Source: Verrucomicrobiaceae bacterium
GTDB lineage: Bacteria; Verrucomicrobiota; Verrucomicrobiia; Opitutales; Intestinicryptomonadaceae
Assembly: GCA_015061955.1 (NCBI GenBank)
Contig: SUVO01000011.1
Coordinates: forward strand, 1-64,000
Reading direction: 5' to 3'
DNA: 64,000 bases
The notes beneath the pieces were generated by a model, which made no database searches, was not told the origin of the DNA, and saw only the letters and a list, made by a program, of their open reading frames with translations. The position numbers and the translations under genes are program-made. Of this stretch, positions 10,060 through 46,066 are shown piece after piece (within the stretch, counting starts at the first letter, position 1; the number at the start of each line of letters is the position of its first letter).

Positions 10060-10930
10060 AGTTGATGTAGATACGTTAGAGGGTACCAGTGTTGGTGTTG
10101 AAAATTTAAGTAGACTTTTTATAAAACACAACGTACCTGCAACTTTTCTTTTTTCGTTGGGGAAAGACCAAATGGGGCGATCAATTTTTCGTATTTTCGA
10201 GAAAGGATTTCTTAAAAAGTGCTTACGGTCAAATGTTGCAGGTAATTATAGTTTAAAAACGTTGCTTCGAGGCACAATTTTACCATCGCCAATTATTGCA
10301 GAAAAATGTAGTTGTGCAATGAAGGCAGTTTCAAGTTGTGGTTTTGAATGTGGGGTGCATTGTTTAAATCATTATAAGTGGCAGAATTTCTTAGACAAAA
10401 TGTCGACAGAGGAAATTGAAAACGAATTCAACGGGGCATGCGAATTGTTTGAAAAAGTTTTTGAGTTTTCTGCGATATCGTGTGGTTCTGCAGGTTGGCA
10501 AGTAGCCAATGATTATTTCAGATTGCAAGATAATTTGAAGTTTTTGTATGCCAGCGATACTCGTGGATATGCTCCATTTTATCCACGTTTAAATGGCGAA
10601 GTATTCAAAACTTTACAAATCCCAACAACATTGTTTACGCTCGATGAACTTTTGGTTTCTAATAAATTATCAGATATTTCTCAAATTCAAGTAAGCTCTA
10701 TTAAAAATGCCGATGTATCGGTTATGACAATCCATGCAGAGCTTGAGGGTATGGCGTATTTGCAGTGGTTTGAAGAATTTCTACTTCTGTTAAAACGCGA
10801 AAATATAGAATTTTTCGGCTTGAAAGATTTTGCTTTATCTTTACAAAATACTAAAACTAATATTAAAGTTTGCGATGTTGAAATGTGCCAGTTTTTCAAC
10901 AGAAGTGGTTTGATTGCAATTCAGAAATAA
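10043..10930 (+). CDS. arnD: ArnD-like deformylase of undecaprenyl-P-4-formamido-arabinose
   Basis: A 295-aa polysaccharide-deacetylase-fold enzyme matching ArnD, which removes the formyl group from undecaprenyl-phosphate-Ara4FN before transfer to lipid A. Conserved blocks are FKVDVDTLEGTSVGVENL (metal Asp), a GVHCLNHYKWQN metal site (His...His), the SCGSAGWQ segment, ASDTRGYAPFYPRL, QIPTTLFTLDEL and MTIHAELEGMAY. I chose the ATG at 10043 because it aligns with the usual N-terminus just before the VDVDT motif; an upstream in-frame TTG at 10031 is less likely. It overlaps the ArnA-type dehydrogenase gene. ArnB, ArnC and ArnT are not in the window. Confidence 0.88.
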   Translation: MKLAFKVDVDTLEGTSVGVENLSRLFIKHNVPATFLFSLGKDQMGRSIFRIFEKGFLKKCLRSNVAGNYSLKTLLRGTILPSPIIAEKCSCAMKAVSSCGFECGVHCLNHYKWQNFLDKMSTEEIENEFNGACELFEKVFEFSAISCGSAGWQVANDYFRLQDNLKFLYASDTRGYAPFYPRLNGEVFKTLQIPTTLFTLDELLVSNKLSDISQIQVSSIKNADVSVMTIHAELEGMAYLQWFEEFLLLLKRENIEFFGLKDFALSLQNTKTNIKVCDVEMCQFFNRSGLIAIQK

Positions 10931-40204: not shown

Positions 40205-40421
40205 GTGGATGTGAAATTTATAAATAGAAATTAGATTCAATAAAAAAGAAGAACGGTAGCATACCCCAATGCTACCGTTCATTTATTTTCTACTTTATTT
40301 ATTTACCCCATCTCCTATTGGAGAAATTGCTTAATTGTGTTCAAGTTTTGTGATTTTTTCGCTTATGTCAATACTTTTTTTGTAATTTTTTATAAAAAAT
40401 GAAAAAATATAAAAAGTACAA
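40205..40421 (+). other. CRISPR leader region with hairpins
   Basis: A gene-free 217-bp AT-rich segment between the mdh terminator and the first repeat. It contains an 11-bp perfect stem (GAACGGTAGCA / TGCTACCGTTC, 40251-40280, 8-nt loop) and a small TCTCC-TATT-GGAGA hairpin at 40311-40324. The last 60 bp before the first repeat is over 80% A+T, as leaders often are. No clear promoter hexamers are seen, so transcription of the array may start here or further upstream. The hairpins have no assigned function. Confidence 0.55.
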
Positions 40422-41447
40422 GTTTTGACTTTACAACAAAATGTTCTTTTTCAAAATGTGTTTGTCGTCCGTTCTGGTGGACAGGTAGTTTTGACTTTAC
40501 AACAAAATGTTCTTTTTCAAAATAACGCCTTTTAATTCGCCACGCATATATTTTGTTTTGACTTTACAACAAAATGTTCTTTTTCAAAATGTAATTTTGA
40601 TTTTAATTCTAAACGGTTTTGTTTTGACTTTACAACAAAATGTTCTTTTTCAAAATGTGTTAACTGTTATGTTGTTCTTATTATAGGTTTTGACTTTACA
40701 ACAAAATGTTCTTTTTCAAAATATATGAGTAGCAAAACAAAAGCTTACATTGGTTTTGACTTTACAACAAAATGTTCTTTTTCAAAATGTTGCCTCTGCA
40801 CGTCAAATTTAAAATCCGTTTTGACTTTACAACAAAATGTTCTTTTTCAAAATTCAAATAATTCAATTGGCGAAAAAATCACCGTTTTGACTTTACAACA
40901 AAATGTTCTTTTTCAAAATCTTACATCGTATAAGCAAGCATCATCAGAGGTTTTGACTTTACAACAAAATGTTCTTTTTCAAAATAACAATCGCAAAGGA
41001 AAACAAACAGCAAAGGTTTTGACTTTACAACAAAATGTTCTTTTTCAAAATTCGGCAAAGACGTATTCAATGGCTGAACTGGTTTTGACTTTACAACAAA
41101 ATGTTCTTTTTCAAAATTAAATGCTTTACGACAATTAAAACTATGAAGTTTTGACTTTACAACAAAATGTTCTTTTTCAAAATATAGAAGGCAGATTGCG
41201 ACAAGAGACTTGGGTTTTGACTTTACAACAAAATGTTCTTTTTCAAAATGAAATGGACTCCATTGAGCTTGAATGCAAGGTTTTGACTTTACAACAAAAT
41301 GTTCTTTTTCAAAATCTTAGTACCTTTCAATGCGGTTTCTTTTTGGTTTTGACTTTACAACAAAATGTTCTTTTTCAAAATGCTTGAGAGATACATAATG
41401 CGGAGCTTTAGGTTTTGACTTTACAACAAAATGTTCTTTTTCAAAAT
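40422..41447 (+). CRISPR. Type II-C CRISPR array, 16 repeats and 15 spacers
   Basis: Sixteen identical 36-bp repeats (begin GTTTTGACTTTACAAC, end TCTTTTTCAAAAT) start at 40422, 40488, 40555, 40621, 40687, 40753, 40818, 40884, 40950, 41016, 41082, 41148, 41214, 41280, 41346 and 41412. Spacers are 30 nt except spacer 2 (31 nt, 40524-40554) and spacer 6 (29 nt, 40789-40817). The + strand orientation is set by the GTTTT 5' end and ...AAAAT 3' end typical of II-C repeats and by its complementarity to the tracrRNA anti-repeat at 41495-41510. No repeat is degenerate, so neither end can be called older. The cas genes lie downstream on the opposite strand. Confidence 0.98.
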
Positions 41448-41451
41448 AGTA

Positions 41452-41480
41452 TTGACATAATCTATTATTAAGTTGATACT
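41452..41480 (+). promoter_or_regulatory. Candidate tracrRNA promoter
   Basis: TTGACA (41452-41457), a 17-bp spacer, GATACT (41475-41480). The -35 box lies 4 bp after the last repeat, and a start near 41487 would lie just before the anti-repeat. The -35 is a perfect consensus and the -10 matches four of six bases. Confidence 0.6.
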
Positions 41481-41486
41481 TACGTA

Positions 41487-41566
41487 TATTTTTAGTTGTA
41501 AAGTCTTAACTGATTTTGCCGAATTTTATGCTCTACAGTGTACCATAAAATTCGGCATATTTTTAT
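41487..41566 (+). ncRNA. Putative tracrRNA
   Basis: Deduced from sequence. GTTGTAAAGTCTTAAC at 41495-41510 pairs with the repeat start GTTTTGACTTTACAAC over 14 of 16 positions (11 contiguous pairs, two U-U mismatches, three pairs), as expected of a tracrRNA anti-repeat. About six bases downstream is a perfect 12-bp hairpin (TGCCGAATTTTA at 41517-41528 with TAAAATTCGGCA at 41546-41557, 17-nt loop) followed by TATTTTTAT, suitable for a terminator and for the 3' stem seen in II-C tracrRNAs. The 3' end is at about 41566, 9 nt short of the convergent cas2 stop. Exact ends are inferred. Confidence 0.8.
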
Positions 41567-41574
41567 CTTAGTAT

Positions 41575-41976
41575 TTAAAATAATAAAAAGTTATTGTCTT
41601 TTTCATCAATTTTGAATTTTGGCTCCTCGTGCATCAAACTATCGAAGAATTCAATTTGTTCGGGAACTTTCTCTAATTCTTTGGGAGTTCTGCTTACGAG
41701 TTTACTCATACTCCATTGCTTGTCTGTGAAAAATAATAATCTAATATCACCAGTTGTGGGAGCGTAAGATTTTACTCGCTCATAATATTTCATCATTCGT
41801 TCAAGAGATACGCATGGTCGAGAATAGACAGAGTACTGAATCATTATAAAACCATCATCTAATAGGGCTTTTCTAAATCGCGTAGCTTCTTTGCGTTCTT
41901 CTTCAAGAAGAACGGGTAAGTCGAACATTGCCATTAACCATCCCATTCTGAACGGACTTTTCTTTTTTACTGACAT
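41575..41976 (-). CDS. cas2: CRISPR-associated endoribonuclease/integration protein Cas2
   Basis: A 133-aa Cas2 with ferredoxin-like fold. It has MGWLMAMFDLPVLLEEERKEATRF, GFIMIQYSVYSRPC and GDIRLLFFTDKQW. With Cas1 it forms the spacer-integration complex. The start is set at 41976 because the Cas1 stop overlaps this ATG as TAATG; an upstream ATG at 41997 is possible but would overlap cas1 by 22 nt. Last gene of the cas operon, converging on the tracrRNA 9 nt away. The C-terminal tail (FKIDEKDNNFLLF) is longer than the usual core. Confidence 0.93.
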   Translation of the reverse strand: MSVKKKSPFRMGWLMAMFDLPVLLEEERKEATRFRKALLDDGFIMIQYSVYSRPCVSLERMMKYYERVKSYAPTTGDIRLLFFTDKQWSMSKLVSRTPKELEKVPEQIEFFDSLMHEEPKFKIDEKDNNFLLF

Positions 41977-42869
41977 TAATTTAATAGCGGAACCCAAAGA
42001 TTATCTGCTTTTTTGTTTCGATAAACGTTTGCGAGACTTTCGCAAATTACATCGGAAGCATCTATTAGTTTTATACTTCTTGTGCTTTTCTTTACTCTAA
42101 ATTCTTTTAAAAATCGTCCAAAGTAAATTGCCCATGCTCGAATATTTGGAACATCTATACTAGTAATGTATTTGTACAAAGCAAAATCTACAAACGCTCT
42201 AAAAGGTTCTATTAAATCATAAACAAGAGGTGTGTTTTTATAATATGTTTTATGATTTACTCCTAATAAATAATTTAAGCCTGCAACAATTATGCTTCTG
42301 TGAATTATGCCTCCCATAATACCATATCCATAATTTAGATAAATGTTTATTGGCGAATTTTCATCAGTTGGATTTCTACGTTGGCCATATTCGCCAAGTG
42401 CTGGGAAGTAATGTTTCCAATATTCTTTTGCACACCAAGCTTCGTTTATTTCTGATATTTGTAATTTCGCCATTTCTGCGAGGCGAAAATTTTTTACACC
42501 TATTCTATTTAAACAAGAAACATTGTTTTGAACTTTTGCCAAAAGAAGTCTTCGCCATATTGCGGTATTGAGATTTTTATTTCCAGCACATTGATTCAAT
42601 ACAACACGGGCATCGTATGTTCGGTTATTAGGAATAGTAATTCCTACCGGTTTGAAATTTTTACAATGGATTATTAAAGCGTCGTAATCAGCCAATGTTG
42701 ACATTATTGCACCACTTATTGACACGGTTTCATTCAACAATACAACAGCTCGCAAATCTTCTAAAGCAATTTTACCCAGAACAGAATTATCTTTCCTGCA
42801 CACCAACAAACCTCTCTCTTTGGTGAGTTTACAACCATAGTCTGCGATGTGCAAGATGTGATAACTCAT
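41976..42869 (-). CDS. cas1: CRISPR-associated endonuclease/integrase Cas1
   Basis: A 297-aa Cas1 of the type II form, with an N-terminal beta domain (HILHIADYGCKLTKERGLLVC) and helical domain (INLYLNYGYGIMGGIIHRSIIVAGLNYLLG, VNHKTYY, and YDLIEPFRAFVDFALYKY). These give the LNYGYG, G-NH and EPFR-VD motifs of the metal-dependent active site. Starts 8 nt after the cas9 stop and overlaps cas2 by 1 nt. Confidence 0.97.
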   Translation of the reverse strand: MSYHILHIADYGCKLTKERGLLVCRKDNSVLGKIALEDLRAVVLLNETVSISGAIMSTLADYDALIIHCKNFKPVGITIPNNRTYDARVVLNQCAGNKNLNTAIWRRLLLAKVQNNVSCLNRIGVKNFRLAEMAKLQISEINEAWCAKEYWKHYFPALGEYGQRRNPTDENSPINIYLNYGYGIMGGIIHRSIIVAGLNYLLGVNHKTYYKNTPLVYDLIEPFRAFVDFALYKYITSIDVPNIRAWAIYFGRFLKEFRVKKSTRSIKLIDASDVICESLANVYRNKKADNLWVPLLN

Positions 42870-42877
42870 ATTATTTT

Positions 42878-45800
42878 CTAATATTCCATAGTAATGCGTT
42901 TCATGCCTGCTTGCATTAAGTAATTTATTGATATTGGGCTTTTGGTTTTTTCTCCGTTTGCATTGGTGAGAACTGCGAAACCATTTGTCTTTATCGTATT
43001 GAGCAAGTAAATACCTTTCGGAAGAAGTGGAATACCAACATCGTTATAAACATCGTCTTCAAGCTTTACTAAGCATCTCGAACGGAATACTCCAGCAATT
43101 TCAACAAAGTCTTTCTTTTGCTTCAACGATTCAAGCACCGTTTGCTTAGATGCATGTGTATAAATTGGTGCAACGTAATATTTGCCGTTTTTCGATTTCC
43201 AAATAATCTGTCCCTTATGCGCATCTCCTTTGCGATATGCACCACAATTATCTTTAGATAAATCTTTGTATTCGTCAGGATTGCCAACGAAAGCTTGTAC
43301 CCTAATTATGCGAGTACCATTCCCATGTTTTGCTGGAATGCGAATAGTATTGCACCAGTTTATCCACTCTTCTTCCGATGGATTTGTATCAACAAATTCC
43401 TTTATTATATTGCGAATAACCGGATTGATTATTCCTTTACTTCCACTATTGACAAGTTTTTGTATTGTAGAAATATCGAATACTGGTTTTAACCCACTCT
43501 TGTATGCTAATTCAATAAGATTAAATTTTTTTACAATACATTCTTTACCATTTATTATGCGTTTTGCGTAAATGCTTTCTTCTAATCTTGGTTTTTTAGT
43601 TGCTACTTCATTAGGGATTATCGCGTCGAGATATTTTCTAAAATAAGCTTCTGCATCTTTTGCAATCTTAATTGGAAGGATTTGATTACTTTTTGTTTTC
43701 TTTACATTTATTCCAGTTGGAGCAAAGCACAAACACATTGCATCGAGAGCATGGTGTTTTTTGTTTGCACGATTTTTCTTTTCTAATTCTTCATGTTTCT
43801 TAAGGATTTCGACTTCCGTAAGCTTAGTTTTATCTATAACTGTATTGTGCAAAATAACGTTCAACCCATACGCTCCTCGAATACTTGCTGTTACACTTCC
43901 AGATACTGTAAAGACTCTCTTTTGACCAGTAGTACCACCAAATTGAAAACCAAAATGCAAACATGCAATACGTTGTGCAAGTTTTGCAATCCATGCAGTT
44001 TCAGCAAGAGCTGTATATTTTTCAACAAGCTCTTCGGCGTTTTCAGATAACAACAAAGCTACACGTTTTTTACCTAACTCTTTTGTTCTAGAACGAACTC
44101 TATCAACGTAGCTTGCCCATCTTTGTTTGTCAGAACAGAGCCATTCGAATGGAGTTTTATTATCTTTTTCTTTATTCGTTTTTTCATCGGTAAGAACATA
44201 GTTGTATTGAGCGTCTGGACCACCTCGGCTACGTGGAACAATATGTTCTATTTCGAGAGATGGTAAATCGCTAGGGGATATAGCATTTCCAGTATATAGA
44301 CATATTCCACCTTGCTTTTGAAGAAGTTCAAGCTTAAGGAGCATTTTATTACCCTTGAAACCTTCTTCATCTAATTTTTTTGCGATGTCTAATTTTTCTT
44401 TTGCGCGTTTTTTTATTGCATCTTGTAAATCTTTTTTTGCTTTCTTCCCAAGGAAGTCTTCACGCACAAATTCAAGAACTATTTTGTCTGGAGCCCCAAA
44501 CTTCTTTTCAAGTGATTTTATGCGTTCATAGAAAAACGCCAATCGATGTCTAACTATTGGGTCATTTTGCGAACCTATTATTTTATTTATTTGCTCAGCC
44601 GAGTTTGTATTTTGTGATATTGCATACTGATACGTTTCAACATCGGGAATATAAATACCATTCCATGATGTTGCATTCATAAGTTTTATGAAATCTAAAT
44701 CGGTTACAACTAAACCTTTATTTGTGTCGGTGTTTGTAATGGCTTTTATCTTTTCTTGATAAAATTCATTTGGTGATATTCCTGAAAAGATAAGTTCTTT
44801 TAAAAGCTTCATTGCAGGACGAGAAAATGAAGATCTGCCACTTTCGCTTGGTGCTTCTATCTCTGATTGGTCTTCATTTAAAACCGAAGCCCCTAATTCT
44901 TTGAACAACTTTTTTACATTTGTTTTTGTAAGTTTGAATTTGTTGTTTTTTGCTAAATCAAAGGCTTTTTTAAATTCTTCAAATGTTAAAGAATCTTCTT
45001 TGTTGTTTCTAAAAAAACGTAGGTTTAGTAGCTTTAATGCAAGCGTTATTTCGTAATGTAATAAATCGTTTTCTGATTTTATTTCATCAAGTTTCTTTAC
45101 TTTGCATACGTTAAAACGTGGTATAAGTTTACACTTATTTACAATGCGATTATCAAAGCACGGTATTTTTTGTCCAAGTGCTGTCCAATCTGTATCTGCT
45201 CCACGTTTGAGGTTGAATTCCTTTCGCATTGTTGGATCGAACGAGGCATACGGCTTTTCAGTAATACCATATAAAATGTACATTGCCTTGTTTTTTAACT
45301 TTGGAAATTGAAGCGATGCCATTTCAACCAATTTAATAAATTCGGCTTCCACGTATTTGCGTGGGATCACATAGCATTTGGCTTTTTGCGCTTGATTGTC
45401 TATACGTAAGTTAACCTGATCCGGATTTTCTGGATTCCACAAGCCCATTTTATAAGCTTTAAAGAAACATGAATAATCGAACTTAGATCTTAATTTCTCA
45501 TCTAATTTTGGTAAGTTTGTTAAGAGTTCGTCTTTTTCGCGTTCAAATTCCTTTAGTTTTTGTGAATACTCATTATTTTCTTTTGAGGAAGTTTCGGTTT
45601 CTTTCCATGGCAAATTTTCATCGTATCCACGATTTTGAATTGCGGAATTAAGTGCTTTAAAAACCTGCCAACTCTCGAGCTTTTCTCCTAAAATAAGTTT
45701 ACAACGTAACGCAATTGAGTTGTAACATATGTTTTCATTAGCCGAGGGGAACTCTTTTTCTAAGCGAACGTCGCCTTTTGAAACGAGTTGCCATTTCCCA

Positions 45801-46066
45801 TCTACGATATCAACTTTTCTACGTTGTAGTACATCAATGCCACATTCCTGCAAACATTTTTCTAAAAATTTCTCACGCGCAAGATGTGCCTTGCGTGTAC
45901 GCATTTGACGTCTTGCGTTTGCTGCTGTTTTTATTTCTGCAAATTCTGGATCAATTATGAGCGATTGAACATGCTTGAATTCATATCCAATTCTGACAGC
46001 TTCTCCGAGAGAGCCTTTACCCATATCAAATCCCCAAATATGTTCGTTTGTATTATTCATAATCAT
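42878..46066 (-). CDS. cas9: Type II-C CRISPR nuclease Cas9
   Basis: A 1062-aa Cas9, size typical of II-C. RuvC-I catalytic D14 lies in WGFDMGKGSLG. The arginine-rich bridge helix follows (ANARRQMRTRKAHLAREK, about 53-70). RuvC-II E532 lies in DKIVLEFVRED, HNH H608 in LEIEHIVPRSRGG, and RuvC-III H771-D775 in KKHHALDAMC. All nuclease residues are intact, so the enzyme looks active. The C-terminal PAM-interacting region (about 820-1062) is not assignable to a known PAM. The start could be the ATG at 46066 or 46060; no Shine-Dalgarno is visible. It heads cas9-cas1-cas2 with no csn2 or cas4, which defines II-C. Confidence 0.97.
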   Translation of the reverse strand: MIMNNTNEHIWGFDMGKGSLGEAVRIGYEFKHVQSLIIDPEFAEIKTAANARRQMRTRKAHLAREKFLEKCLQECGIDVLQRRKVDIVDGKWQLVSKGDVRLEKEFPSANENICYNSIALRCKLILGEKLESWQVFKALNSAIQNRGYDENLPWKETETSSKENNEYSQKLKEFEREKDELLTNLPKLDEKLRSKFDYSCFFKAYKMGLWNPENPDQVNLRIDNQAQKAKCYVIPRKYVEAEFIKLVEMASLQFPKLKNKAMYILYGITEKPYASFDPTMRKEFNLKRGADTDWTALGQKIPCFDNRIVNKCKLIPRFNVCKVKKLDEIKSENDLLHYEITLALKLLNLRFFRNNKEDSLTFEEFKKAFDLAKNNKFKLTKTNVKKLFKELGASVLNEDQSEIEAPSESGRSSFSRPAMKLLKELIFSGISPNEFYQEKIKAITNTDTNKGLVVTDLDFIKLMNATSWNGIYIPDVETYQYAISQNTNSAEQINKIIGSQNDPIVRHRLAFFYERIKSLEKKFGAPDKIVLEFVREDFLGKKAKKDLQDAIKKRAKEKLDIAKKLDEEGFKGNKMLLKLELLQKQGGICLYTGNAISPSDLPSLEIEHIVPRSRGGPDAQYNYVLTDEKTNKEKDNKTPFEWLCSDKQRWASYVDRVRSRTKELGKKRVALLLSENAEELVEKYTALAETAWIAKLAQRIACLHFGFQFGGTTGQKRVFTVSGSVTASIRGAYGLNVILHNTVIDKTKLTEVEILKKHEELEKKNRANKKHHALDAMCLCFAPTGINVKKTKSNQILPIKIAKDAEAYFRKYLDAIIPNEVATKKPRLEESIYAKRIINGKECIVKKFNLIELAYKSGLKPVFDISTIQKLVNSGSKGIINPVIRNIIKEFVDTNPSEEEWINWCNTIRIPAKHGNGTRIIRVQAFVGNPDEYKDLSKDNCGAYRKGDAHKGQIIWKSKNGKYYVAPIYTHASKQTVLESLKQKKDFVEIAGVFRSRCLVKLEDDVYNDVGIPLLPKGIYLLNTIKTNGFAVLTNANGEKTKSPISINYLMQAGMKRITMEY

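Follow-up and report, generated by a model that had tools for sequence, protein, structure and literature searches.

A predicted tracrRNA with a single downstream hairpin between a CRISPR array and cas9-cas1-cas2 of a Verrucomicrobiaceae bacterium

Between a CRISPR array and a cas9-cas1-cas2 operon, an RNA of about 80 nt is predicted at positions 41487-41566 on the plus strand. It is very likely that this RNA is the tracrRNA of the adjacent operon and that its one hairpin replaces the separate nexus and terminator hairpins. We regard the region as a tracrRNA because it is matched by a covariance model built without it, because it co-occurs with one Cas9 clade and because its helices show compensatory pairing. 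All of the evidence is computational. The window is the whole stretch of DNA that was analysed, 64,000 nucleotides from one contig of a Verrucomicrobiaceae bacterium (Opitutales, Verrucomicrobiota), and positions are counted from its first letter.

Organization of the CRISPR-Cas locus

The array (40422-41447, plus strand) consists of 16 identical 36-nt repeats, GTTTTGACTTTACAACAAAATGTTCTTTTTCAAAAT, and 15 spacers, all 29-31 nt long. Its strand reads toward the tracrRNA, and cas9-cas1-cas2 converge on the array from the opposite strand. The cas9 gene (42878-46066, minus strand) encodes 1062 aa and matches the profiles NF049971 (1212 bits) and TIGR01865 (209.9 bits). It is followed by cas1 (41976-42869, minus strand; TIGR03639 cas1_NMENI, 133.6 bits against a cut-off of 120) and cas2 (41575-41997, minus strand; TIGR01573, 64.9 bits). 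The locus carries no fourth cas gene and cas4 is absent from the genome; RNase III is encoded (TIGR02191, 195.8 bits). The 127-nt gap that separates the last repeat from the cas2 stop contains the promoter, the anti-repeat and the hairpin with its U-tract. The same gene order is repeated in relatives.

The last repeat (41412-41447, plus strand) is the probable leader end, where new spacers would be inserted. In several related loci (L046, L050, L075, L080, L100 and L107) a degenerate terminal repeat lies at the array end far from the tracrRNA, which suggests that the last repeat is the growing end of the array. For the window this polarity is assigned by analogy, since its own 16 repeats are all identical. 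No convincing protospacer turned up in viral contigs for six of the spacers, searched as exact patterns of 21-22 nt, or when all 15 spacers were compared with phage records and with 19 genomes of the family. The missing protospacers, with every spacer tried, were counted against our best explanation, and the search yielded no PAM. No relatives of this Cas9 were found in viral contigs.

Anti-repeat and hairpin of the predicted tracrRNA

The anti-repeat (41491-41510, plus strand) pairs AAC with the GUU of repeat positions 1-3, leaves a 2x2 U.U loop at repeat positions 4-5 and forms an upper stem from repeat position 6 onwards. Within it, 41495-41510 pairs with repeat positions 1-16 at 14 of 16 positions, as stated in the original prediction, the two unpaired positions being neighbouring U.U mismatches. 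Over the whole of 41491-41510, Watson-Crick pairing reaches 17 of 20 positions. This is the highest value in the whole window outside the array (next best, 15), and it was reached by none of 20,000 dinucleotide shuffles of the leader.

A linker of 6 nt (UGAU-N2 in the window) leads from the duplex to a single hairpin (41517-41557, plus strand). It is composed of a 14-bp stem (41517-41530 with 41544-41557; 0 of 2,000 shuffles), a 3x1 internal loop, a 3-bp apical helix UAC/GUA (41534-41536 with 41540-41542) and a 3-nt loop. The terminator U-tract TATTTTT (41558-41564, plus strand) was read from the sequence. A hairpin with a U-tract had been predicted here with a stem of 12 bp; the hairpin is present, and the length has to be corrected to 14 bp. 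A simple terminator scan missed it because the loop limit of that scan is 8 nt. In both the sequence and the fold of the window tracrRNA, the terminator hairpin follows the duplex with no separate nexus hairpin in between. The RNA ends at 41566, short of the cas2 stop on the other strand (41575), as had been proposed. By consensus and comparison, the tracrRNA has its own promoter and a Rho-independent end on the array strand.

An sgRNA-style fusion of repeat and tracrRNA folds as modelled (z -10.2), and the anti-repeat does pair in fold prediction, a check that had been named together with the original prediction. Rfam release 15 gave no match to the window at gathering score.

Covariation and conserved form of the RNA family

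A covariance model was built from an alignment of 27 homologous regions in other genomes, with the window left out. In the window it matches 41482-41566 with 76.7 bits and an E-value of 2.2e-15, which is rough due to short calibration; the next best match scores 13.3 bits. The match is the sole one in the 2.4-Mb genome. Covariance modelling, which the original prediction had asked for, thereby recovers the tracrRNA region independently of the window.

Compensatory changes are found in both helices. In the hairpin, 15 of 17 pairs show two-sided changes, and 90.6% of the cells are paired, compared with 60.1% when partners were shuffled and 33-39% (maximum 38.9%) when they were slid. For the repeat:anti-repeat duplex, two-sided changes are seen at 10 of 14 pairs, with 89.6% of cells paired against 76.5% for shuffled and at most 54% for slid partners. 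The relatedness of the sequences is kept by the slid controls and not by the shuffles.

The lower stem GUU:AAC is invariant in 32 of 32 loci. Repeat positions 4 and 5 are likewise unpaired in 32 of 32 and retained as Py.Py. In L075 and L104, repeat U4 and the opposite tracrRNA base have both changed to C, so that U.U became C.C twice. Because both sides changed, the pyrimidine mismatch at repeat position 4 itself seems to be kept, as judged from these alignments. At position 7 of the repeat, in the upper stem, all four Watson-Crick pairs are used across loci. Past the short linker, the family form is one hairpin: a stem of about 14 bp is topped by a 3x1 internal loop and, above it, by a 3-bp apical helix URC/GYA that closes a short loop. 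The stem tolerates sequence change, whereas the apical tip is conserved, with the motif C-N-CURC-N3-GYAC. Exceptions are an extra hairpin in L105 and a bulged upper stem in L080 and L100. One locus (L079, 4753-5127, minus strand) carries two tandem, very similar tracrRNA genes beside a single Cas9 locus.

The leader motif and the tracrRNA promoter

A leader motif of 13 nt, AGTATTGACATAA (41448-41460, plus strand), abuts the last repeat and includes the -35 box. Its family form, AGG-N-TTGACAGAA (A-G-G-N-T-T-G-A-C-A-G-A-A), is common to 34 leaders, in which the information content amounts to 0.2-1.15 bits at positions 1-13 and at most 0.05 bits at positions 14-16. The predicted tracrRNA promoter TTGACA-17-GATACT (41452-41480, plus strand) matches the consensus at 10 of 12 positions. 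It is the top promoter-like site in the stretch between array and cas2; a spacing of 17 nt separates TTGACA (41452-41457) from GATACT (41475-41480). The TTGACA box of the original prediction is real, though it lies outside the coordinates given there (41487-41566), and the start near 41487 agrees with the position at which this promoter would place it. The TTGAC of the motif probably acts as a -35 element, since a -10-like hexamer 16-18 nt downstream of it outscores shuffles (26 leaders, 2/2000). The conserved AGG and AA on either side are not part of a -35, which suggests a second role for them, perhaps in anchoring integration.

The sequence AGTATTGACATAA is present in only two copies in the 64 kb. 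The other one is an exact inverted copy at 40363-40375 (minus strand), 46 nt before the first repeat and facing outward. It was not seen in the left flanks of relatives, and a decayed repeat beside it was looked for and is absent.

A longer transcript, starting from a -10 at the end of the last repeat or resulting from read-through of the array, is a possible but rather unlikely alternative; in it, the newest spacer, the repeat, the leader and the anti-repeat would fold in cis as a natural single guide. The last repeat and the anti-repeat do fold together across the 43-nt leader (-46.5 kcal/mol), and the promoter scan found a promoter-like site, TTTACA-16-CAAAAT, inside every repeat. In the Gracilibacteria loci L096 and L113 (minus strand near 10312-10460), the anti-repeat lies almost directly after the last repeat and makes one hairpin with it; because no room is left between them for a separate promoter, the promoter in these loci must be the repeat's own or lie further upstream. 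On the other hand, the window and 25 relatives have a separate -35 with a well-spaced -10, pointing to an independent short tracrRNA transcript, and RNase III is present both in the window genome and in that of L113. Loss of RNase III was rejected as support for such a guide: the enzyme was not found in the genome of L096, but it is present in that of its near relative L113. Slightly less probable still is an extension of this idea, namely that read-through links newest spacer, last repeat and tracrRNA, so that the newest immunity would be loaded first, perhaps without RNase III, and the dual-use leader would couple insertion to transcription. A tracrRNA transcribed separately from its own promoter is the reading that we prefer.

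One hairpin compared with described tracrRNAs

In Gasiunas 2020, which covers 79 Cas9s, the shortest sgRNAs belong to the SaCas9-like clade V and are described as having two hairpins after the duplex (PMC7606464). The window RNA resembles those of the small clade V Cas9s in its repeat:anti-repeat duplex and its shortness. However, the clade V RNAs are reported to carry a nexus-like hairpin and a larger fold, whereas the window RNA has only one hairpin (PMC7606464). We found no description of a one-hairpin tracrRNA in the literature searched, which takes in the main text of that article. Many non-canonical folds were noted in a metagenomic survey (PMC10278012).

The sister-clade RNAs of L122 and L116 show a first hairpin with the tip ACUGC-UUUU-GCAC or CACUGC-GUUG-UCAC, followed by a separate terminator hairpin. 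This two-hairpin reading was made partly by eye, the first hairpin of L116 being taken from the sequence, and the unconstrained fold of the L116 RNA prefers other pairs, without the first hairpin. The tips of these first hairpins are the same motif as the apical motif of the window clade. As the sister-clade RNAs carry this tip in a hairpin separate from the terminator, the nexus-type and terminator hairpins of the window clade appear to have merged, or never to have been split. One hairpin seems to do the work of at least two hairpins in described Cas9 tracrRNAs. A small hairpin may also form only in the tertiary structure, or functional RNA may extend past the U-tract.

It is improbable that the hairpin is merely a transcription terminator and that the functional tracrRNA comprises little beyond the anti-repeat. 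A stem and a U-tract suffice for a terminator, and the stem does vary freely, but it is the apical loop, and not the stem, whose sequence is conserved. Moreover, the same motif sits in a non-terminator hairpin of the sister clade, and a plain terminator needs neither.

Termination of the convergent transcripts

The hairpin had also been suggested to terminate the cas operon. This is not supported: past the hairpin, the cas strand continues with ...CGGCAAAATCAG and lacks a U-tract; the U-tract follows the hairpin on the tracrRNA strand only. A terminator scan found no cas-strand terminator in the gap between array and cas2. The A-run that corresponds to the U-tract overlaps the cas2 stop codon, or lies directly against it, in most relatives. 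Beyond the array there is a strong minus-strand terminator at 40280-40251: a 12-bp hairpin (40251-40280) whose U-tract is strong when read on the minus strand (TTCTTTTTTA) and weak on the plus strand. This element may halt outside transcription into the array, or read-through on the cas strand.

The idea that inverted repeat and hairpin arose by chance, or form a cas operon terminator with no tracrRNA, fits an AT-rich region and a hairpin directly after the cas2 stop, but it was dropped as almost certainly wrong in view of the shuffles (0/20,000 and 0/2,000), the covariation in both helices and a cas strand devoid of a U-tract.

Cas9, subtype and distribution

The catalytic residues D14, E532, H608, N631, H771 and D775 are invariant in an alignment of 22 Cas9 sequences. 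An AlphaFold2 model of the protein has a mean pLDDT of 81, and its best solved matches in Foldseek are St1, Thermo, Sa and Nme1 Cas9, with a TM of about 0.5. The original prediction called this 1062-aa Cas9 uncharacterised. This is right insofar as it is without a close solved relative, and no characterisation of the clade was found in the literature and databases searched; the family is, however, already modelled by NCBIfam, as Cas9d (NF049971, 1212 bits against a cut-off of 375).

Although this profile fits, we did not file the system as II-D. The II-D adaptation module includes cas4 (PMC12669027), and II-D Cas9s are compact proteins of about 600-970 aa that use a large guide RNA (PMC11706934), whereas the window system has no cas4, a Cas9 of 1062 aa and a tracrRNA of about 80 nt. 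The II-D Cas9d MG34-1, with which the window family shares the NCBIfam name, has 747 aa and a 158-nt sgRNA with four paired regions (PMC11706934, PMC9755519), whereas the sgRNA scaffold here measures about 90 nt and comprises two paired regions. The curated Cas9d profile NF049971 scores highest on this clade of 1030-1060 aa, which is without the published II-D features, and its name may be misleading for annotation.

Operon and array polarity look like II-C. In II-C arrays, new spacers enter at the last repeat and transcription runs in that direction; systems with a 3′ leader share with the window promoters borne by the repeats, an array read toward the leader and an operon of cas9-cas1-cas2 only, and probably also the insertion of new spacers at the last repeat (PMC12080349, PMC8092290). 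Unlike in these papers, the window tracrRNA gene fills the leader and has its -35 within the conserved leader motif, an arrangement of which we found no description in them. EHCas9 (PMC10281378) was set aside as a relative, its nearest kin being alphaproteobacterial. In a tree of 72 Cas9s that holds no named references, the window Cas9 falls into a clade of its own, separate from the class's other Cas9s.

A search of 286 genomes of the class found this Cas9 above the profile cut-off in 14 and the RNA in 10, all of which belong to the 14. In the remaining four, the contig ends within or beside cas9, before the cas2 side is reached. In the same tree of 72 sequences, the RNA-bearing Cas9s correspond to one label change, on a branch with an SH-aLRT of 100. 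Clade members occur in records of Verrucomicrobiota, Lentisphaerota, Kiritimatiellota, Melainabacteria, Spirochaetota and Gracilibacteria; lone odd taxa may be binning errors, because most records are metagenome-assembled. A genome of the same genus (G002) encodes, besides this Cas9, a second one that is distant from it and belongs to a different clade (L011, L047). Our data bear out the tracrRNA call, its strand, its extent and its convergence with cas2, by the window-free model and the compensatory changes in both helices as well as by the strict co-occurrence with this Cas9 clade and the shared gene order.

Proposed mechanism and implications

In the model that we propose, TTGACA-17-GATACT, which lies just past the last repeat, drives transcription of the tracrRNA on the array strand. 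The anti-repeat of this RNA would pair with the 5′ half of each repeat in the pre-crRNA, through GUU:AAC, the 2x2 U.U loop and an 11-bp helix, and this duplex is presumably the substrate of RNase III. Cas9 would then hold the duplex and the one downstream hairpin, which would double as transcription terminator. Of the tracrRNA-specific contacts of Cas9, the main one is probably made by the conserved apical motif. From the terminator role and this conserved motif taken together it follows that the hairpin would substitute for both nexus and terminator.

The analysis adds two features to the original prediction: the one-hairpin architecture of the tracrRNA, tied to a single Cas9 clade, and the location of the predicted tracrRNA promoter within the array leader. 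The guide-RNA model can be written as an sgRNA, spacer + GUUUUGACUUUACAAC-GAAA-GUUGUAAAGUC...41564, with a scaffold of about 90 nt, and is directly testable. Should a single hairpin with a conserved tip be enough, this would show how little tracrRNA a Cas9 needs and how nexus and terminator can merge. With a tracrRNA promoter placed inside the leader motif, one may ask how adaptation and the supply of guides influence one another.
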